Source: Haloarcula laminariae (lineage in GTDB: Archaea > Halobacteriota > Halobacteria > Halobacteriales > Haloarculaceae). Taken from it: a stretch of 64,000 bases of DNA. This document shows positions 3,260 through 12,207 of the stretch, piece by piece; within the stretch, counting starts at the first letter, position 1; every line of letters begins with the position of its first letter. Made by a program: the position numbers and the translations under genes. The stretch lies in contig NZ_JAMZFY010000001.1 of assembly GCF_025457605.1 (NCBI RefSeq), positions 1,240,001 through 1,304,000 on the forward strand, written 5' to 3'. The notes beneath the pieces were generated by a model. It saw only the letters and a list, made by a program, of their open reading frames with translations, had not been told where the DNA came from and searched no databases.

Positions 3260-3631
3260 TCACTCCTCGACCGGGAACGCCTCGTGAAGCACGTCGTGGG
3301 CCTCGCCCAGGCCCGAGAGGACGTCCTCGCCCTGGGCGGTGATGCGGCTCACGGCCCGTTCGGCGTCCCGCACGGCGACGAGTCGGCCGCGCATGTAGTC
3401 GTACTCGTCCGTCTCCTCGTCGGTGCGGGCGATTTCCTCTTCGAGGTCCACCAGCGCGGCGTCGAGGTGGCGCTCTATGGCGGACAGCGTCTCCGCGTTC
3501 GCCAGCGCCTCGATGGGACCGGACAGGTGCCCCTCCAGCTCGGCTTCCGCGTGCTGGCGCGCGTGGTCGTCTTCGGTACCGAGAACGTTCATGAGGCCCA
3601 GTCGGAGGGCCTCGATTTCGTAGCAGCTCAT
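3260..3631 (-). CDS. DUF3209 family protein, cobalamin-locus associated
   Basis: This is a 123-residue, acidic, all-helical protein starting MSCYEIEALRLGLMNVLG. It matches the DUF3209 family, which in haloarchaea is typically encoded directly after cbiX. It lies 24 bases downstream of cbiX on the same strand and is the last gene of the run. No catalytic motif is visible apart from the conserved Cys3 near the N-terminus. Its biochemical role is unknown. Its position suggests a helper in cobalt insertion or in delivery of the tetrapyrrole. Confidence 0.8.
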   Translation of the reverse strand: MSCYEIEALRLGLMNVLGTEDDHARQHAEAELEGHLSGPIEALANAETLSAIERHLDAALVDLEEEIARTDEETDEYDYMRGRLVAVRDAERAVSRITAQGEDVLSGLGEAHDVLHEAFPVEE

Positions 3632-3655: not shown

Positions 3656-4879
3656 TTACAGCGTCTGGTCGACCAGTTCGCTCACGATGCGGTCGCGGTC
3701 CAGGTGGTCGCCGACGATGTCGTCGGCGTCGTCCGCGCCGACGCCGCCGTACCAGACGCCGTCGGGGTAGACCGCGACCATCGGCCCCTCGCCACAGCGG
3801 CCCAGGCAGGACGACCGCGTGATGCGGGCGTCGCAGTGGTCGCTGTCGCGGACGGCCTGGCGCAGGCGCTCCAGGACCGCCGGCGCGCCGTCGGCGGCAC
3901 ACGTCTGGTTGGTACAGACCGCGACGTGTTTCTCGGGTGCGTCGTGGACGTGTGGATCGTCGGCGACATCCTCGCGGTCCTCGTGTTCGGCCTGGTGGGT
4001 CAGCGCCCGCAACATCGCGCGGGCGCCGCCGGTGTCGTCCTCGTAGCCGTCGAGTTCGACCTTGTACTTGCAGGTGTCACAGGACATCTCGACGCTGCCG
4101 GTCCGGGCCTCCTGCCAGCGGTCCCCCAGCACGTCGAGCAGCCGCGGGTCGGTCCCGAGGGGCTCGCCGAAGCCGGCGTCGACGTAGGGGTACTCGTCGT
4201 CGAACTCGCGGGCGCCGTCCTTGATGCGGCCCGTCAGCACGCCGTCGCCGAGCATGTACGGCAAAACGACGACGGCGTCGGGGCGGGTCTTTGCCACGTC
4301 GTGGAGCGTCTCGGAAAGGAGCGGCTCGGTGACGCCGATGAAGGAGGCGTCGACGCGAGAGAACTCACGGCCCTCGTACAGCAGGCGGGCGAGCTTGTGA
4401 ACGTCGGCGTTGGCGTCGGGGTCAGACGAGCCCCGCGCGCAGACGACCACCGCCACGTCGTCGTCCTCCCGGTCGACGCCCAGCTCGGCCTCGACGGCGG
4501 CCGCGCGGTCGTCGAGCAGCGAGAGCAGGGCGGGGTGGACCCCCAGGTGCGCGCCGTTGTTGATGGTGAGCTCCGGGTGCCGTTCCCGGGCCTGCGTGAC
4601 GGCGAGAGGCACGTCGTTTTTGACGTGGCTCGCGGCAAAGAGCGAGAGGTGGACGACCGACACCTGCGAGACGGTCGCCGCCAGCCCCGAGATGGCCTCG
4701 TCGATGGCCGGCTCGGCGAGTTCGAGGAAGGCGGCGTCGACGGGGATGCCGAGCCGGCCTTCGAGGGACGCGGCCAGCTCGCGGACCTGCTCGTTTGACT
4801 TCTCCCGGCGGGAGCCGTGTCCCGCGAGCAGGATAGCCTCGTCGTCGAGGCCCTCGGGGGCGGTGGTGGCTTCGCTCAT
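3656..4879 (-). CDS. cbiX: Sirohydrochlorin cobaltochelatase CbiX fused to a [2Fe-2S] thioredoxin-like ferredoxin domain
   Basis: CbiX inserts Co2+ into sirohydrochlorin at the entry of the oxygen-independent cobalamin pathway. The 407-residue protein starts at the ATG at 4879 (MSEATTAPEG), because the frame upstream of it reads as an antisense-like shadow. Residues 12-260 hold two CbiX half-domains; the chelatase histidine is H21 in AGHGSR. A linker with CDTCKY and His-rich stretches follows. Residues 322-407 form a thioredoxin-fold [2Fe-2S] domain with cysteines C322, C327, C358 and C362. The ferredoxin fusion suggests redox control of metal insertion or electron delivery. The start overlaps the stop of the upstream gene by 4 bases, implying translational coupling. 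Confidence 0.92.
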   Translation of the reverse strand: MSEATTAPEGLDDEAILLAGHGSRREKSNEQVRELAASLEGRLGIPVDAAFLELAEPAIDEAISGLAATVSQVSVVHLSLFAASHVKNDVPLAVTQARERHPELTINNGAHLGVHPALLSLLDDRAAAVEAELGVDREDDDVAVVVCARGSSDPDANADVHKLARLLYEGREFSRVDASFIGVTEPLLSETLHDVAKTRPDAVVVLPYMLGDGVLTGRIKDGAREFDDEYPYVDAGFGEPLGTDPRLLDVLGDRWQEARTGSVEMSCDTCKYKVELDGYEDDTGGARAMLRALTHQAEHEDREDVADDPHVHDAPEKHVAVCTNQTCAADGAPAVLERLRQAVRDSDHCDARITRSSCLGRCGEGPMVAVYPDGVWYGGVGADDADDIVGDHLDRDRIVSELVDQTL

Positions 4880-5535
4880 CTGACTCGCTCGATGCTCCGG
4901 CGGAGCTTGCGGCGACGGCTCGGGGCGAAGAGCCCGGACGATTCGCTGCCCTCGTAGAGCCACTCGCCGACGGCGGGGACGGCGTCGTCGTCGACGCCGA
5001 ACCAGTACCCCGAGGAGGCCTCGCTGGGGTCGTCGTACGGCGCCACGACCGGGACCTCGTCCAGCAGCGACTGGACGGTCCGGAGGAGCTCGCGGCTCTC
5101 GTGGACGAAGGACAGCCCCACCGCGTCGTCGTCGGACTTGAAGCAGACCGTGCCACAGCCCTCGACGAGTCCGCGGAGCAGCTGGCGGTCGTAGTCGGCC
5201 AGGGTGTCCAGCCGGTAGCCCCCGGACTCGCCCTCGAAGGGGAGCCCGAGCGCGCCGCTGGCCCGCTCGCCGAGCGGCCCGACAACCTGGACCGTGTACT
5301 CCTCCTCCCGGCGGGTAATCGAGGTGTCGTGGGCGTAGGGGCGCTCGACGATGCGCTGGTCGGTCCGCTCGGCGCCGGCGATGGTCGCCAGCCGCCGGGC
5401 CGCCGTCTCGTCGGCCGTCCGAACGGTGACGCAGTTCTCGTCGCAGTCGCCGTCGCCAGCCACGCGGCCCCAGAAGTACGCCGTCTCCGGGTGGGCCGCC
5501 AGCATGTCGCCGGGCGGGCCGGTCTCGATGCTCAC
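4876..5535 (-). CDS. Cobalamin-operon protein with two LAGLIDADG-like motifs
   Basis: This 219-residue protein belongs to a family carried inside haloarchaeal cobalamin operons and usually annotated only as a cobalamin biosynthesis protein. Two pseudo-symmetric halves can be seen. Residues 21-29 (FWGRVAGDG) and 120-128 (LRGLVEGCG) resemble LAGLIDADG motifs about 99 residues apart, each followed by beta-strands and a helix such as ETAARRLATI or ESRELLRTVQ. In the second motif the usual acidic residue is Cys127. The tail is basic (RRRKLRRS). This pattern suggests a domesticated homing-endonuclease fold used for DNA binding, comparable in origin to WhiA. That is inference. The gene overlaps both neighbours by 4 bases, so it is firmly part of the operon. 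Confidence 0.7.
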   Translation of the reverse strand: MSIETGPPGDMLAAHPETAYFWGRVAGDGDCDENCVTVRTADETAARRLATIAGAERTDQRIVERPYAHDTSITRREEEYTVQVVGPLGERASGALGLPFEGESGGYRLDTLADYDRQLLRGLVEGCGTVCFKSDDDAVGLSFVHESRELLRTVQSLLDEVPVVAPYDDPSEASSGYWFGVDDDAVPAVGEWLYEGSESSGLFAPSRRRKLRRSIERVR

Positions 5536-5792
5536 GGCTCGGCCTCCCCCAGCGGCTGGCTCCGCGGGGCGTCGGTCCCGGCGTCCTCGACGGTGATGGC
5601 GTCCAGCGGGCAGGCGGCGGCCGCCTGCTCGGCGTCGTCGCGGCGGTCGTCGTCGAAGGTCCCGGCGATGGCGTGGGCGTCGTCAACCTCGATGGCCGCC
5701 AGCCCGTCGGACGCCTCGACGAAGCGGTCGTCCCGGACCAGACAGGCGAAGACGCCGTCGCAGGCCTCGCGGTCGATAGTGACTGTATACAT
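5532..5792 (-). CDS. Small ferredoxin, probably one [3Fe-4S] or [4Fe-4S] cluster
   Basis: This 86-residue protein has C11, C17 and, after a long helix-bearing spacer, C61 followed by Pro (CPLDAI). The CxxxxxC...CP arrangement fits a single-cluster ferredoxin. Only three cysteines are available, which favours [3Fe-4S] or a cluster with a non-Cys ligand. The C-terminal 20 residues are an unstructured tail. It sits between cbiH and the LAGLIDADG-like gene with a 4-base overlap downstream. It could donate electrons to a corrin-pathway reduction, for example with the ferredoxin-fused CbiX or CbiH, but no partner is shown by the sequence. Confidence 0.85.
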   Translation of the reverse strand: MYTVTIDREACDGVFACLVRDDRFVEASDGLAAIEVDDAHAIAGTFDDDRRDDAEQAAAACPLDAITVEDAGTDAPRSQPLGEAEP

Positions 5793-5794
5793 TG

Positions 5795-6754
5795 TCAGTA
5801 ATCGTATTTCGTCTCGTAGCCACGGGGCGTGACCATCCGGTCGTCCCAGACGTAGGTGTCCTCGTTGCCGACCAACAGCGTGGTCGTCATGTCCACGAGG
5901 TCGGTCTCGCCCAGCTCGGGGAGCTCCTGCAGCTCGACGATCTCGACCTGCTCGTCCTCGCGGCCGGCGGCGTGGACGACGCCGACAGGGGTCTCGGGGT
6001 CCCGGTGTTCGAGCAGTATCTCACAGCACTTCTGGTAGTTCTCGCGTCGCTTTCGGCTCCACGGGTTGTAGATGCTGATGGTGAAGCCCTCCTTGGCGGT
6101 CGCGTGGAGCCGCGACTCGATGGTCGGCATGTCCGTGAGGTGGTCCGACAGCGAAATCGAGACCGTATCGTTGACCAGGGGCGCGCCGACCCGCGCGGCA
6201 CAGGACTGGGCCGCGGGGACGCCGGGCACCACGTCGAAGTCGAGCATCGACGCCGTCGCGCCCTTGGACTCAATGATTTCGAGCGCGAGCCCGGCCAGCG
6301 CATAGACGTTCGGGTCGCCGCTCCCGATGATGGCCACGTCGTTGCCCGCGAGGGCCCGGTCGATAGCCTCCTCCGTTCGGGAGACCTCGCCGCACATCGG
6401 CGTGTTGTAGATATCCTCGGCCCCCTCGACGACCTCGTCGGGGAGCAGTTCAACGTAGGTTGTATAACCGACGATGTGCTCGGCATCGAGCAGGGCCGAG
6501 CGCGCTCTCGCGGTCATGCCGTCGGGCTGGCCGGGACCGAGGCCGACGGCGACGAACCGCCCGGGGTCGGCCTCGAAGTCGTCGACGGTCGCGCCGACCT
6601 CCTCCTCGTCGCTGGAGGCCCCACAGGAGCTCCCGGAGGAGTCGGAGTCGCTCGCGCCGCACTTCGAGCCGGTGTCGGCCGCCGCGTCGGTGGTTGTCCC
6701 GTCGGTCGATGCGCCACATTTCGATTCGGTGGACTCGGTGTTGTCGGTGCTCAT
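5795..6754 (-). CDS. cbiH: Cobalt-precorrin-3B C17-methyltransferase paralogue with Cys-containing N-terminal tail
   Basis: This is a 319-residue SAM-dependent tetrapyrrole methyltransferase. Core motifs are VGLGPGQPDG near residue 70, GSGDPNVYALAG, and VPGVPAAQSCAARVGAPLVND, all typical of CbiH/CobJ, which methylates C17 and contracts the ring. An extra 60-residue disordered N-terminus carries three near-identical pieces, KCGAS at 12-16 and 31-35 and SCGAS at 43-47, in an otherwise Ser/Asp/Thr-rich stretch. It lies 3 bases after a second cbiH. Haloarchaea commonly carry two cbiH copies; which one performs ring contraction cannot be decided here. Confidence 0.88.
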   Translation of the reverse strand: MSTDNTESTESKCGASTDGTTTDAAADTGSKCGASDSDSSGSSCGASSDEEEVGATVDDFEADPGRFVAVGLGPGQPDGMTARARSALLDAEHIVGYTTYVELLPDEVVEGAEDIYNTPMCGEVSRTEEAIDRALAGNDVAIIGSGDPNVYALAGLALEIIESKGATASMLDFDVVPGVPAAQSCAARVGAPLVNDTVSISLSDHLTDMPTIESRLHATAKEGFTISIYNPWSRKRRENYQKCCEILLEHRDPETPVGVVHAAGREDEQVEIVELQELPELGETDLVDMTTTLLVGNEDTYVWDDRMVTPRGYETKYDY

Positions 6755-6757
6755 GGT

Positions 6758-7690
6758 TCAGAAATCCTCCACGTCACGCCCGCCCCGCGGGGTGACGAGG
6801 AACTCGCGGTAGTCGTTATCCCAGACCTCGGTCTCGTGGGTGCCGACGACGATGGACGACCCCATCCCGCCGACCTCCTCGCTGTGGTCCGGCAGTTCGC
6901 CCAGCGTGGTGATGGTCTCGACCTCGTCGTCGAGATTCCGGCCGGCGCTGCCCCGTCCGGCGTCGTTGACGATGGCCGCGGGCACGTCGTCGGCCCGCTC
7001 CTCGCGGAGGACCTCAACGGCCCGCTCGTAGTCGCGCCAGCAGTTGTACAGCACGACGACGAAGCCGCTGATGGCCGCCGCGCGGAGCTTCTCCGCTATC
7101 TCGTCCCAGCCGCGCCACTTGTCCGACAGCGAAATCGTACAGAAGTCGTTCGACAGCGGCGCGCCGAGATTCGCGGCCCCGGAGAGGGCGGCTGTCACGC
7201 CGGGAACGATTTCGATGGGCACGTCGTCGGCCTCGTCCGCCTCGGCCATCTTGAACAGCAGGTCGGACTTCCCGTAGACGTTCGGGTCGCCGCCGGAGAC
7301 GTGGGCCACGTCCTCGCCGGCCCGGACCCGCTCGAAGGCCGCCCGGGCGAGTTCGACCTGTTTGCCCATCGACGAGCGGATGAGGGTCTGGCGGCTCCCG
7401 TCGGGCCGCTCCAGGACGGTCCCTTCCTCGTCGGCCACCTCGCTGTCGTCCGAGACATCCTCGATGGCGGCCGATTCCGGCGGGAGCGTCCCGTCTTTGC
7501 GGAGGAACTCCTGGTAGAGGTTCGAGGCGACGACCGTATCTGCGGTCCGGATGACGTCGCTCGCCCGCTGGGTCATGTGATGGGGGAGTCCGGGACCGAT
7601 ACCGACGACGTAGAGCGTACCGTAGTCGTCGGGCCGTTCCGCCGTCCCGTCGGCCGCGGACTCGGCGACACCGCCGTGGTCGCTACTCAT
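6758..7690 (-). CDS. cbiH: Cobalt-precorrin-3B C17-methyltransferase (first copy of two)
   Basis: This 310-residue CbiH/CobJ-type methyltransferase has GIGPGLPHHMTQRA, SGGDPNVYGKSD and VPGVTAALSGAANLGAPL. It is the first enzyme gene of the cbiH-cbiH-ferredoxin-LAGLIDADG-cbiX-DUF3209 transcription unit. Its ATG at 7690 overlaps the end of a 15-codon leader frame (GATGAGTAG), and the predicted transcript starts at that leader's ATG, so translation of cbiH may depend on the leader. The protein lacks the Cys-bearing tail of the neighbouring copy. Confidence 0.88.
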   Translation of the reverse strand: MSSDHGGVAESAADGTAERPDDYGTLYVVGIGPGLPHHMTQRASDVIRTADTVVASNLYQEFLRKDGTLPPESAAIEDVSDDSEVADEEGTVLERPDGSRQTLIRSSMGKQVELARAAFERVRAGEDVAHVSGGDPNVYGKSDLLFKMAEADEADDVPIEIVPGVTAALSGAANLGAPLSNDFCTISLSDKWRGWDEIAEKLRAAAISGFVVVLYNCWRDYERAVEVLREERADDVPAAIVNDAGRGSAGRNLDDEVETITTLGELPDHSEEVGGMGSSIVVGTHETEVWDNDYREFLVTPRGGRDVEDF

Positions 7691-7752: not shown

Positions 7753-7772
7753 CATAAAACAATTTTGCTTGT
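7753..7772 (-). promoter_or_regulatory. cbiH-operon promoter: TATA element plus upstream motif shared with cbiT
   Basis: On the minus strand ACAAGCAAAATTG (7772-7760) is followed directly by the TATA-like TTTTATG (7759-7753). The same arrangement, with 12 of 13 motif bases conserved, precedes cbiT at 11289-11270. In both cases the next ATG (7730 and 11246) lies 23-24 bases from the TATA edge, giving leaderless transcripts. The motif overlaps the BRE position and is a candidate operator for a cobalamin regulator. Confidence 0.6.
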
Positions 7773-7840: not shown

Positions 7841-8029
7841 ATGGAAATCGTCGTCGAGGACCCACAGCGCACCGGCGGAATCACGACCTACCAGCCGGCC
7901 CAGTACAGCTACGACGGGGAGACGGAGATGTGGTCGCTCCGGCTCACCGACGGTGGCCGCGAGGTCGAACGGCTGATACCCAGGGAGCGGGTCGTCTACA
8001 TCGAGGACGAACCGGTCACCGACCGATAG
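7841..8029 (+). CDS. Small uncharacterised protein encoded against the cobalamin genes
   Basis: This 62-residue acidic protein, MEIVVEDPQRTGGITTYQP through EDEPVTDR, looks like one small beta-sheet domain (alternating strands such as YSYDGETEMWSLRLTD and VERLIPRERVVYIED). It is the only plus-strand gene between cbiT and DUF3209. It runs into the 3' end of cbiG with a convergent overlap of 14 bases and shares a 110-base divergent region with the cbiH promoter. The ATG at 7841 is preferred because the frame upstream has no protein-like composition. Function is unknown. Its location suggests co-regulation or a deliberate boundary between the two corrin operons. Confidence 0.65.
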   Translation: MEIVVEDPQRTGGITTYQPAQYSYDGETEMWSLRLTDGGREVERLIPRERVVYIEDEPVTDR

Positions 8030-8987
8030 CGACCGTCACCGCTTCGTCGTAGCGGGTCTTCTCGGCCAGCAGGTCGTGCTCGCGGCCGCCGGCGATGGCG
8101 CTGGCCTCGGCGATGCCGGGCCAGCCGATGAGCTCCTTCGAGCGGGAGGGGGTCGGCCCCTCGAACTCCTCCAGAGTCCCCTTCTCGAAGGCGACGACGC
8201 CCAGGTCCCAGGCCTCGGCGGCGGCGAGCATGCCGTCCTCGTCGGCCTTGCGGGTGCCCGTCGCCACGAACTCCACGTCCGAGCGGTCGAGGCCCGCCTC
8301 GTCCAGCGCGGCGTCCCACGCGGCGTGGAACTGCTCGACGTCGGCGCCGGCGACGGAGCCACAGCCCAGGACGACGCCGTCGTCGCCGTTTCGCTTGAGG
8401 ACGCTCACGTCGTCGTCGACCAGGACCGCCTTCGGCCCGTCGAGGCGCTCGACCGGCCCGAGTTCGTCGTCGAGCACGGCGAGGTTCGTCGCGACCGTCG
8501 AGTCGCCGTTGACGACGTGGGCGTCGAGGGCTTTGGCCTGCTTCTCGACGCCCTGCTTGCCCGCGGCCTCGCTCGCGGTCGTCATCGCCGGCACCGCGCC
8601 CATGCTCGCGAGGTCGTCGGCGACCTGGTTCGCGCCGTGGTGGCCGCCGGTGATGGGGATGGCCCAGGTGAGCTCCTCGTCGACGACGCAGATGGCCGGG
8701 TCGTCCCACTTGTCGTCGAGCAGGTGGGCCGTCTTGCGCATCGCGATGCCGCTTGCCATCAGGCCGACGAAGCAGTCGTACTCGCCCCAGTGTTCCTCGA
8801 ACACGTCGCCGTGGTACTCGACGATGTCGATGGACTCGTAGCGGTCGCCGATACCGTCGACGATGTCCTCGGCGGTGTCCATCTTGCGCTCGAAGGCGAC
8901 GATAGCTATATCCTCCGCGACCTCCCCGTCGGAGTCGGGCGCTTTGCAACTGTTCGAACCGGAGTCGGAGTCGCTGTCAGTGCTCAT
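8016..8987 (-). CDS. cbiG: Cobalt-precorrin-5A hydrolase CbiG
   Basis: CbiG opens the delta-lactone of cobalt-precorrin-5A and releases acetaldehyde. The 323-residue protein shows the N-terminal domain with a glycine-rich ASGIAMRKTAHLL, the hallmark GGHHGAN near residue 115, and a C-terminal domain with VLGCGSVAG and ATGTRKADEDG. The first 20 residues are a Ser/Asp-rich tail containing one Cys (NSCKAPDSD), similar in style to the tail of the cbiH paralogue. It ends the cbiT-cbiL-cbiF-cbiG unit; its start codon shares one base with the cbiF stop. Confidence 0.9.
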   Translation of the reverse strand: MSTDSDSDSGSNSCKAPDSDGEVAEDIAIVAFERKMDTAEDIVDGIGDRYESIDIVEYHGDVFEEHWGEYDCFVGLMASGIAMRKTAHLLDDKWDDPAICVVDEELTWAIPITGGHHGANQVADDLASMGAVPAMTTASEAAGKQGVEKQAKALDAHVVNGDSTVATNLAVLDDELGPVERLDGPKAVLVDDDVSVLKRNGDDGVVLGCGSVAGADVEQFHAAWDAALDEAGLDRSDVEFVATGTRKADEDGMLAAAEAWDLGVVAFEKGTLEEFEGPTPSRSKELIGWPGIAEASAIAGGREHDLLAEKTRYDEAVTVAIGR

Positions 8988-9871
8988 TAATCGTCTGCCT
9001 CCTGCGATGTGTCGTCCCCGCTACCACCACTGGCCCACTCGCCATACAGGAACGAGCGCTCGTAGTCCTCCCCGCCCACCGCATCGCCGATGATGACCAT
9101 CGCCGAGGCCCGATACCCCGCGTCCTCGACTTTCGCACCGATGGTCTCGATGGTCCCCTCGATGACCTCCTCGTCGGGCCAGGAGGCGTGGTACACCGCC
9201 GCGACGGGCGTCTCGGGGTCGTGGCCGTCCGCGACGAGGCGCTCCATCGTCTCGCTGACGGCGTGGGTCCCGAGGTAGATACACGTCGTCACGTCGCCCA
9301 TCCCGACGAAGTCGGAGATGTGGTCCTCCTCCTCGGTCAGCGTCTTGCCCTGCGGGCGGGTGAAGGCGACGTGGTTGGCGACCTCGTTCAGCGTCAGCTG
9401 GGTCCGCATCGTCGCGCTGGCGGCGAAGGCGCTGGTGACGCCGGGAACGATGTAGGTCGGGACGCCCTCGTGTTCCAGAGCGTCCATCTGTTCCAGCGCG
9501 GCGCCGTAGATAGCTGGGTCGCCGCTGTGGAGCCGGACGACGGTGTCGCCGGCCTCGTAGGCGTCCCGCATCAGTGGAATCAGCTCCTCCAGGTCCTTCC
9601 CGATGGAGGAGACGGTCTCGGCGTCGGCGCAGTACTCCTCCAGCAGTTCGCTGTTGACCAGCGAGCCGGCGTGGACCACGAGGTCGGCGTCGGCCAGCAG
9701 GTCGCGGCCCGCGACCGTCAGGAGCCGGGGGTCGCCCGGGCCGGCACCCACGAAGGGGATGCCCTCCTGCTCGTCGCCCGCGCTGTGGTCGTAGACGCGG
9801 TCGTCGCGGTCGGTCGCGACGGCGTCGATAGCGTCCTGCGGGTCGGTCTCCTGGGTGCGCTCGTCGGTCAT
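8987..9871 (-). CDS. cbiF: Cobalt-precorrin-4 C11-methyltransferase CbiF
   Basis: This 294-residue SAM-dependent methyltransferase adds the C11 methyl group to cobalt-precorrin-4. Motifs include VGAGPGDPRLLTVAG near residue 41, LHSGDPAIYGAALEQM, VPGVTSAFAASATM and FTRPQGKT. The last motif and the GDPRLLT start separate CbiF/CobM from the other family members. A 35-residue acidic extension precedes the catalytic domain. The gene overlaps cbiL by 4 bases and cbiG by 1 base. Confidence 0.92.
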   Translation of the reverse strand: MTDERTQETDPQDAIDAVATDRDDRVYDHSAGDEQEGIPFVGAGPGDPRLLTVAGRDLLADADLVVHAGSLVNSELLEEYCADAETVSSIGKDLEELIPLMRDAYEAGDTVVRLHSGDPAIYGAALEQMDALEHEGVPTYIVPGVTSAFAASATMRTQLTLNEVANHVAFTRPQGKTLTEEEDHISDFVGMGDVTTCIYLGTHAVSETMERLVADGHDPETPVAAVYHASWPDEEVIEGTIETIGAKVEDAGYRASAMVIIGDAVGGEDYERSFLYGEWASGGSGDDTSQEADD

Positions 9872-10653
9872 TCTCGCACCTCGTCGCCACAGAGGGCGGC
9901 CTCGGAGCGCTCCTGTCGGGCGATGCTCGCCGCCCCGCCGTCGGAGATGACCCCCGCGCTATCGACCCCTTCGAGGAAGGCGTCGGTGGCCTGCTCGACC
10001 CGGGCGTCTGGCTTCTCGGCGTAGGCCAGCGTGTAGTAGTCCCGCTCGCCTATCTCGGCGGGGTCGTCGGTCACTACGGTCTCGCCCTGCTCCATGAACA
10101 GCCGTCGGCCGTAGGTCACGTCGTAGCCCGCCTCGACCAGCCCCGCGTGGGTCGCGGGCGCGTCGGTCACCTTGAACAGAATCATCCGGTCGGGCCCCGT
10201 CGGCGCGACGCCGCCGTCGGCCTCCCGCAGCGCCAGGCTCGACCCCGCGGTGACCTCGACGCCCAGCGCCGTCGCGAATGCCGTCACCGCGCTCACGCCG
10301 GGGACGACCTCCAGGTCGACCTCGGGGTGGAACGCGGCCAGCGTCCGCCGGAGGTGACCGAAGGTCGAGTAGACGTTCGGGTCCCCCAGCGTGACGAACG
10401 CGGCGTCGCCCTCGCGGGCCCGCGGGGCGATTTCGGCCGCGGCCTCTTTCCAGGCCGAGCGCAGTTTCTCCTCGTCGCGCGTCATCGGGAAGTCGAGGTC
10501 GCCGATGCGCTCCTCGGGGACGTGTTTGGTCGCGACAGTCCGCGAGAGCCGACCCGGCGAGTAGACCACGTCGGCGTTTTCGAGGGCGCGCTTGCCCCGA
10601 ACCGTCACTAGGTCCGCCTGGCCGGGCCCGAGGCCGACGCCGTAGAGAGTCAT
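9868..10653 (-). CDS. cbiL: Cobalt-factor II C20-methyltransferase CbiL
   Basis: This 261-residue protein is the first SAM-dependent methyltransferase after cobalt insertion and acts at C20. It begins MTLYGVGLGPGQADLVTVRG and contains VTLGDPNVYSTFGHLRR and VPGVSAVTAFATALG. TLGDP with STF is typical for CbiL/CobI. It overlaps cbiT upstream and cbiF downstream by 4 bases each, so the four genes are read as one translationally coupled operon. Confidence 0.92.
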   Translation of the reverse strand: MTLYGVGLGPGQADLVTVRGKRALENADVVYSPGRLSRTVATKHVPEERIGDLDFPMTRDEEKLRSAWKEAAAEIAPRAREGDAAFVTLGDPNVYSTFGHLRRTLAAFHPEVDLEVVPGVSAVTAFATALGVEVTAGSSLALREADGGVAPTGPDRMILFKVTDAPATHAGLVEAGYDVTYGRRLFMEQGETVVTDDPAEIGERDYYTLAYAEKPDARVEQATDAFLEGVDSAGVISDGGAASIARQERSEAALCGDEVRE

Positions 10654-11246
10654 CGGTCGCCCCCCTGTGACTCGGCCGGCCTCCCGCCGTCGGCCGCGAC
10701 CGCCTCGCTCGCACTGCCGACGAGCATGTAGACGGGGTTCTCCGAATCGAAGCTCGTCGCCCCGGCCAGCTCGTAACCGTGGCTCACCTGGAACTGGAGG
10801 ACCTCCTCCAGCAGGTCCCGGTCACGGAAGGCCTGGGTCGCCGCGCCGGCGACCTCCAGCCGGGAGACGTTCATCACGACGCGGTCGATACCGGTCTCGG
10901 CGGCGTGGTCGAGGACGGCCTCGTAGTTGCGGCTGCCGCCCAGGAAGAGCGCGTCGGCGTCGGCCGGGAGCCCCTCGGGCGCCTCGGCCTCCCGCAGGGT
11001 AACGTCGGCCTCGGTGTCGTTCGCGGCCAGGTTCTTCTCCGTCACTTCGAGCCGCTCCGGTTTCCGTTCGAGCGCGGTGACCTCGCCCGCGCGTCGGGCC
11101 GCCTCGACGGTGACGGCGCCGGTACAGGAGCCGACCTCGACGAAGTGGTCCGACGGGCCGAGCGCGAGCTTGCTCGCGAGGACCGCCCGGACCTCCGGCT
11201 TCGTCGGCCCGGCTTTCGCGTCGTGGGGCAACGAGACGTGTGCCAT
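10650..11246 (-). CDS. cbiT: Cobalt-precorrin-6B C15-methyltransferase (decarboxylating) CbiT
   Basis: CbiT methylates C15 and decarboxylates the acetate side chain at C12. The 198-residue protein is a class I Rossmann methyltransferase with SAM motif VEVGSCTGAVTVEAARR near residues 41-57 and a later LFLGGSRNYE. The ATG at 11246 (MAHVSLPHD) is chosen over an in-frame alternative 33 bases upstream because it lies 24 bases from the TATA element and would start a leaderless mRNA. It heads the cbiT-cbiL-cbiF-cbiG operon. CbiE, often paired with CbiT, is not in the window. Confidence 0.9.
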   Translation of the reverse strand: MAHVSLPHDAKAGPTKPEVRAVLASKLALGPSDHFVEVGSCTGAVTVEAARRAGEVTALERKPERLEVTEKNLAANDTEADVTLREAEAPEGLPADADALFLGGSRNYEAVLDHAAETGIDRVVMNVSRLEVAGAATQAFRDRDLLEEVLQFQVSHGYELAGATSFDSENPVYMLVGSASEAVAADGGRPAESQGGDR

Positions 11247-11269
11247 GCGCAGTATAAACTCACGTGGGG

Positions 11270-11289
11270 CATAAATCAATTGTGCTTGT
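11270..11289 (-). promoter_or_regulatory. cbiT-operon promoter and putative cobalamin operator
   Basis: Minus-strand ACAAGCACAATTG (11289-11277) precedes the TATA-like ATTTATG (11276-11270). It repeats the architecture seen at the cbiH promoter. The core CAA-N6-TTG is an inverted repeat. The divergently encoded winged-helix regulator starting at 11395 is a reasonable candidate to bind it. Confidence 0.6.
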
Positions 11290-11394: not shown

Positions 11395-12207
11395 ATGGGA
11401 CAGCGTTCGGACGGGAGCGAGGAGTTCGGCGTCCTCCGGAGCAAGCGGACCGCGACACGGTACCAGATACTGGTCGAGGTCGCGGAGCGCCAGCCGGCGG
11501 TCAGCCAGCAGGAGATAGCGGACGCCATCGGTATCACCTCCCAGGCCGTCAGCGACTACCTCCGCGGGCTCGCCGACGAGGGCCACGTCACCAAACACGG
11601 CCGCGGTCGCTACGAGGTGACGAAGGAGGGCGTCGACTGGCTCATCTCCCAGACCGACGCGCTGCGGAGCTTCGTGAGCCACGTCTCCGAGGACATCATC
11701 GGGCAGGTCGACATCGAGACGGTGCTGGCCACGAGCGACATCGAGGAGGGGGAGACGGTGTCGGTGACGATGCGCGACGGCGTGTTGCGGGCCATCGCGG
11801 GCGACGCCGGGAACGCGACCGCGGTCGCGGTGACCGACGCCGACGCCGGTGGGGACCTGGGCATCACCAACGTCGAGGGCGTCGTCGAGTACGACCTCGG
11901 CGACGTGACCGCGGTGTCGATTCCCCGGGTGCAAAACGACGGGAGCGCGGCCGTCGACGCCGACCGCATCGCGCAGTTGGCGAGCGACCACGACCTCGTC
12001 GCCGTCGCCGGCGTCGAGGCGCTGGCCGCCGCCCGGGCCGCCGACGTGCCGGTCGACATCCGCTACGGGAGCGTCGCCGCCGTCGAGGAGGCCGCCACGA
12101 AGGGCCAGGACGTGCTCCTGCTGTCGAGCGCCGACCGGCTCTCGACCCACACCGACGCCCTGGCCGGGGCCAACATCGGCTACGAAGTGCTCGACGCCGC
12201 CGAGTAA
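11395..12207 (+). CDS. Winged-helix transcriptional regulator with large C-terminal sensor-like domain
   Basis: Residues 20-85 of this 270-residue protein form a winged helix: ATRYQILVEVAERQ, recognition helix QQEIADAIGITSQAVSDYLRGL, then a wing HGRGRYEVT. The rest (90-270) is an alpha/beta domain of a haloarchaeal type with Asp/Ala-rich strands and no recognisable ligand motif. It is transcribed away from cbiT with 148 bases between the start codons. A CTACTTTA element about 26 bases before the ATG fits a leaderless start. Context points to a regulator of the cobalamin operons; this is inference. Confidence 0.75.
   Translation: MGQRSDGSEEFGVLRSKRTATRYQILVEVAERQPAVSQQEIADAIGITSQAVSDYLRGLADEGHVTKHGRGRYEVTKEGVDWLISQTDALRSFVSHVSEDIIGQVDIETVLATSDIEEGETVSVTMRDGVLRAIAGDAGNATAVAVTDADAGGDLGITNVEGVVEYDLGDVTAVSIPRVQNDGSAAVDADRIAQLASDHDLVAVAGVEALAAARAADVPVDIRYGSVAAVEEAATKGQDVLLLSSADRLSTHTDALAGANIGYEVLDAAE

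Follow-up and report, generated by a model that had tools for sequence, protein, structure and literature searches.

LAGLIDADG enzymes use the eighth position of each motif to supply a metal-binding acid, and to our knowledge only a few proteins of this fold have been domesticated: WhiA, HO and the maturases. Cobalamin synthesis in haloarchaea was covered in a 2021 curation of Haloferax proteins, which described two consecutive gaps in the pathway (EC 2.1.1.195 and 1.3.1.106) and four cobalamin-cluster genes without an assigned function, including HVO_B0055 beside cbiX (HVO_B0054); a gap-filling role was suggested for these four genes, with HVO_B0055 and HVO_B0056 among the candidates (PMC8305020). 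In Bacillus megaterium, the histidine-rich tail of CbiX has been proposed to store and deliver metal (PMC7689651). Here, we identify the product of an HVO_B0055-type gene in Haloarcula laminariae, which we call LAG, as a LAGLIDADG-fold protein that has lost nuclease function and been recruited into the cobalamin pathway. The gene lies in a 64,000-nucleotide stretch of DNA (the window) and occupies the same slot as HVO_B0055 of Haloferax volcanii, flanked by cbiX on one side and, on the other, by the gene that precedes cbiH2; its position and the gene order suggest that the two are orthologues. The gene itself is already known, as one with "function unassigned". Its fold and domestication are absent from the main text of PMC8305020, and our search of the open literature, outside which most subscription journals lie, found no published account of either.

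The cluster in the window runs cbiT-cbiL-cbiF-cbiG-cbiH1-cbiH2-ferredoxin-LAG-cbiX-DUF3209 (Table 1). LAG reads from a GTG start at 5535 to a stop codon at 4876-4878, and the boundaries given by an earlier sequence-only reading of this DNA are correct; we add that the gene lies on the minus strand. That reading had also called the gene tightly coupled to cbiX and ferredoxin, and the junctions agree: LAG overlaps the ferredoxin stop codon (GTGA) and the cbiX start codon (ATGA), so its translation is probably coupled to that of its neighbors.

Table 1. Features of the cobalamin cluster in the window
Feature	Position	Strand	Basis or remark
DUF3209 protein	3260-3631	-	Fold match TTHB059 (2EHW)
cbiX, bilobal sirohydrochlorin cobaltochelatase with C-terminal 2Fe-2S thioredoxin-like domain	3656-4879	-	ATGA overlap with LAG stop
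LAG, 219-aa two-repeat LAGLIDADG-fold protein of cobalamin cluster (HVO_B0055-type)	4876-5535	-	ORF, Pfam PF14528 (sub-threshold), AF2, Foldseek
Cys131 codon of LAG, invariant	5143-5145	-	Predicted concave-surface orientation, from strand alternation
LAGLIDADG motif 2, LRGLVEGCG, LAG residues 120-128	5152-5178	-	Catalytic position is Cys127
His69 codon of LAG, invariant, repeat 1 beta3-beta4 hairpin	5329-5331	-	Alignment
LAGLIDADG motif 1, FWGRVAGDG, LAG residues 21-29	5449-5475	-	Acid D28 variable across homologues
4Fe-4S single-cluster ferredoxin (PF13459)	5532-5792	-	GTGA overlap with LAG start
cbiH2, tetrapyrrole methylase	5795-6754	-	Name from PMC8305020
cbiH1, tetrapyrrole methylase	6758-7690	-	Name from PMC8305020
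Cobalamin-cluster operator before cbiH1, ACAAGCAAAATTGTTTT	7756-7772	-	
cbiG	8016-8987	-	
cbiF	8987-9871	-	Name from synteny
cbiL	9868-10653	-	Name from synteny
cbiT, methyltransferase	10650-11279	-	Annotated cbiT in syntenic Halorussus plasmid
Cobalamin-cluster operator before cbiT, ACAAGCACAATTGATTT	11273-11289	-	
MarR-like regulator with C-terminal DUF7839, divergent	11395-12207	+	Adjoins cbiT operator in many, not all, genomes

The sequence-only reading rested its LAGLIDADG assignment on two motifs whose starts lie 99 residues apart and on the strand-helix order that follows each; both are confirmed, the predicted secondary structure running alpha-beta-beta-alpha-beta-beta-alpha twice. Pfam LAGLIDADG_3 (PF14528) matches residues 115-162 of LAG with E=0.0012 and 19.5 bits, short of its curated cut-off of 22.5 bits, and matches 35 of 55 LAG homologues at E<=1 (best 2.7e-5), a count made by E-value and not by comparing each match with the 22.5-bit cut-off. 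An NCBIfam search with LAG returned no match, and searches of PDB sequences with the LAG sequence and profile gave chance matches only, so the link to the fold stands on Pfam, profile-profile and structure comparison. Fold comparison of a predicted structure, the check that reading had proposed, gives a uniform answer. An AlphaFold2 model built from an alignment of the 55 haloarchaeal homologues (pLDDT 92.9, pTM 0.90) contains two such repeats packed through their LAGLIDADG helices, and 44 of 44 Foldseek matches in the PDB at E<=0.001 are LAGLIDADG proteins, including the TliVMA and PI-SceI inteins, I-Tsp061I, I-DmoI, I-SceI, I-OnuI variants, the bI3 maturase and WhiA. Among viral structures, most of the named matches are endonucleases or proteins that carry inteins.

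Weak matches of the LAG profile outside the family are haloarchaeal proteins whose sequences read as intein-containing GyrB, PolD large subunit and RpoA'', and profile-profile alignment (hhalign) of the LAG family with haloarchaeal intein endonuclease domains gives a probability of 92% (E=5e-7), versus 0.2% for a control with CbiX. Because the intein endonuclease profile matches the family, an archaeal intein-type homing endonuclease is, as far as sequence profiles can tell, the likeliest ancestor of LAG. The haloarchaeal GyrB, PolD and RpoA'' inteins share the duplicated fold and two motifs with LAG, as do I-DmoI, I-Tsp061I and PI-SceI. Unlike archaeal intein-type endonucleases, LAG has no protein-splicing domain and no paired catalytic acids, and it holds a fixed place in a metabolic operon. 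WhiA (DUF199; fold matches 3hyi and 8dy9) resembles LAG in being a non-nuclease LAGLIDADG protein under host selection, but is bacterial and ends in a helix-turn-helix (HTH) domain, whereas the LAG family lacks an HTH and is confined to haloarchaea in the searches we ran. Pfam finds no HTH in LAG, and the predicted structure ends in one long helix after repeat 2.

The catalytic positions of LAG have decayed. Position 127, the eighth of motif 2, was noted earlier as a cysteine in place of a catalytic acid, and this extends to the family: among the 55 homologues it is cysteine in 53, serine in one and threonine in one, and never acidic. At position 28 of motif 1 the residue is D in 26 homologues, S in 20, A in five, N in two and G in two, so that the acid is retained in 26 of 55 and lost in 29. 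Conservation of the motif positions thus extends to the glycines and E125 (G23, G122, E125 and G128 are invariant, and G29 is kept in 54 of 55) but not to the catalytic positions, D28 and C127. The gene is under purifying selection, with a median dN/dS of ~0.09 across Haloarcula and two near relatives, and it shows no sign of mobility, being free-standing, syntenic and single copy in nearly every genome. LAG could still be an active, free-standing homing endonuclease that merely sits in the cobalamin cluster, as its fold and motifs would allow. Set against this are the motif 2 catalytic position, without an acid in 55 of 55 homologues, the dN/dS of 0.09, and the occurrence of LAG as a single copy at a fixed locus and its absence from genomes without CbiG; we give this idea practically no chance, and the catalytic positions effectively refute it. 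LAG is, judged by its residues, a dead nuclease, and we regard its LAGLIDADG fold and its loss of nuclease function as close to certain.

Of 194 genomes drawn evenly from across the class, 106 encode CbiG. Raw LAG matches occur in 103 genomes, one of them spurious: we rejected genome G078 as a carrier, since its match is interrupted by a stop codon in frame and the profile does not hit that region. With it removed, LAG is found in 102 of the 106 genomes with CbiG and in none of the 88 without (Fisher p ~4e-49, with G078 counted as a hit and phylogeny ignored). The order cbiH2-ferredoxin-LAG-cbiX-DUF3209 is kept in nearly all LAG loci of 16-18 kb. Outside Halobacteriales, a search of 295 genomes of the phylum gave only weak intein-like matches, and LAG is absent from Thermus plasmids that carry a 2Fe-2S CbiX and DUF3209, where the cluster also lacks the ferredoxin. 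In aerobic haloarchaea, the cobalt-early B12 cluster has LAG as a fixed member in single copy, and we hold its recruitment into the cobalamin pathway with high confidence. The earlier description of LAG as domesticated is upheld on several counts: its fold, its lost catalytic acids, purifying selection, a fixed locus and co-occurrence with the pathway. In the draft genome G184 (L059:8585-9143) the LAG reading frame is broken by a frameshift or stop, reflecting either a sequencing error or a pseudogene, and a Haloarcula rara plasmid (NZ_CP119786.1; L002, L003) carries the cobalamin cluster in two near-identical copies.

Four genomes encode CbiG without LAG (G001, G007, G129 and G052). The first three also lack the cluster ferredoxin, DUF3209, the CbiX 2Fe-2S domain and haem-copper oxidase subunit I, and are probably anaerobes, as judged by haem-copper oxidase. 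The oxidase subunit is missing from only four of the 194 genomes, and the chance that all three CbiG-encoding genomes without it would fall among the four without LAG is 2e-5, uncorrected for kinship, two of them sharing a genus. G052 keeps the oxidase, ferredoxin, long CbiX and DUF3209, and its LAG slot is filled by an additional, short CbiX whose tail is rich in histidine (L111:12703-13644). A histidine-tailed CbiX is found in all four genomes, with tails of 21-27% histidine, while 50 of 50 CbiX proteins examined from genomes with LAG have the 2Fe-2S domain and a histidine-poor tail (3-6%); this mutual exclusion represents about three independent lineages. In a FastTree phylogeny of CbiF, CbiG, CbiH2 and CbiL, rooted on Thermus, the oxidase-less genomes branch outside the LAG-bearing clade and G052 falls within it, which implies one gain and one loss of LAG, under a root that is uncertain because the Thermus outgroup branch is very long. 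The CbiX-L of B. megaterium, with its histidine-rich tail and 4Fe-4S cluster, is unrelated to LAG in sequence and fold; its relevance is that a histidine-tailed CbiX occurs where LAG is missing.

DUF3209, the last gene of the cluster, shows a distribution of its own. It occurs in 103 of the 194 genomes, is missing from the three CbiG-encoding genomes without haem-copper oxidase and is present in all other genomes with CbiG and in aerobic Thermus, near a 2Fe-2S CbiX where checked. Its fold is that of TTHB059 (window protein and L145:13472-13834), and its invariant residues are Cys3, Glu5, Glu7, His27, His55, His112 and His116. DUF3209 may be an adaptation that lets the cobalt-early pathway run under aerobic conditions.

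LAG might instead be an enzyme that closes the pathway's gaps, as a non-homologous replacement for CbiJ (cobalt-precorrin-6A reductase) or CbiD (cobalt-precorrin-5B C1-methyltransferase), perhaps with the ferredoxin as its electron donor. We found neither CbiD nor CbiJ in any of the 194 genomes, the published candidate list includes HVO_B0055 and HVO_B0056, and LAG has invariant polar residues that suggest a functional site. The idea is weakened because CbiD and CbiJ are also missing from the four genomes without LAG, which retain the remaining cbi genes and show no obvious substitute for either enzyme in their clusters. LAG has no Pfam match to CbiD (PF01888) or CbiJ (PF02571), its fold has no recognizable cofactor site, and CbiH1, which is also present in clusters without LAG, is a simpler candidate for the methylation. 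We consider a gap-filling role unlikely.

A second alternative, favored by the prior expectation of nucleic-acid binding because all LAGLIDADG proteins that we know of act on nucleic acid, is that LAG is a WhiA-like transcriptional regulator of the cbiT and cbiH1 promoters. WhiA sets a precedent and ranks among the top fold matches, the C-terminal helix of LAG is basic (+3.5 on average), LAG would be encoded inside the operon it controls, and the cluster's one strongly conserved operator, which is palindrome-like, lies at the cbiT and cbiH1 promoters. Searching the entire genome for this motif, ACAANCRNAATTGNTTT, at up to one mismatch gives exactly two copies, where chance predicts none in the window. 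Nearly every locus carries it ahead of cbiT, exactly or with one mismatch, the loci of all four genomes without LAG among them, and because it persists there its reader is either another factor or LAG together with another factor. The MarR/DUF7839 protein, encoded divergently beside the operator in many genomes, is the obvious candidate where present and a better one than LAG, which lacks an HTH domain. The LAG family is also comparatively acidic, at -0.10 charge per residue versus -0.02 to -0.06 in three haloarchaeal intein endonucleases, a weak argument against DNA binding since only these three were compared. The sequence-only reading had offered a DNA-binding regulator as one option; retention of the operator in four of four genomes without LAG and the acidity of the family leave it unsupported, and we judge it improbable. 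Haloarchaea that have CbiG conserve this operator, and further, degenerate copies often lie upstream of it. LAG may alternatively bind RNA or have another regulatory role, for example acting on cbi mRNA in the manner of a maturase. The LAG fold is close to that of the bI3 maturase, but LAG is acidic and no intron context was seen, and we rate this lower still, as a slim prospect.

The other option raised earlier, reuse of the fold for corrin or cobalt chemistry, is the one that comparative evidence favors. We tentatively propose that LAG is an accessory, not acting on DNA, to cobalt insertion by CbiX and ferredoxin, and, with similar reserve, that its LAGLIDADG fold binds a cobalt or tetrapyrrole ligand in place of DNA or RNA, making it a metal or corrin accessory of aerobic B12 synthesis. 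Besides the motif residues, His69, Cys131, Gly140, Ser142, Ser175, Phe179, Tyr194, Arg207 and Lys210 are invariant in the alignment of 55 homologues. Strand alternation suggests that Cys131 and Ser142 are on the concave side, which in homing enzymes faces DNA, and that His69 sits in a hairpin at its edge. In our model, a single event close to the root of the cluster's aerobic haloarchaeal form would have brought in LAG together with the ferredoxin, and LAG would no longer read DNA. Its concave beta surface would bind a negatively charged tetrapyrrole or a cobalt species through invariant His69, Cys131, Ser142 and Ser175 and a conserved Lys/Arg133, joined by Arg207 and Lys210 of the C-terminal helix. 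LAG would thereby assist the adjacent CbiX and ferredoxin by cobalt delivery, reduction or retention at the sirohydrochlorin cobaltochelatase step, a job that CbiX with a histidine-rich tail may do in genomes without LAG.

Several points are suggestive of such a role for LAG at cobalt insertion. LAG alternates with histidine-tailed CbiX, pointing to cobalt supply or insertion, although this exclusion comes from about three lineages; the CbiX tail of B. megaterium is a proposed metal store; and the most divergent LAG homologue (G021; 33% identity), which is unlinked from the cobalamin cluster, has as its neighbors a pair of cation-efflux (CDF) genes and one rhodanese gene (L063:6945-9954), a context seen in one genome. 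Against it, the former endonuclease metal positions are unconserved in LAG, and any metal site is putative.

LAG sits in a core metabolic operon of about half of haloarchaeal genomes. As a gene with no assigned function in a pathway with two gaps, its assignment bears on how the cobalt-early ("anaerobic") corrin pathway is run in air. If our proposal is correct, LAG would represent a homing-endonuclease scaffold converted to a metal or corrin accessory.
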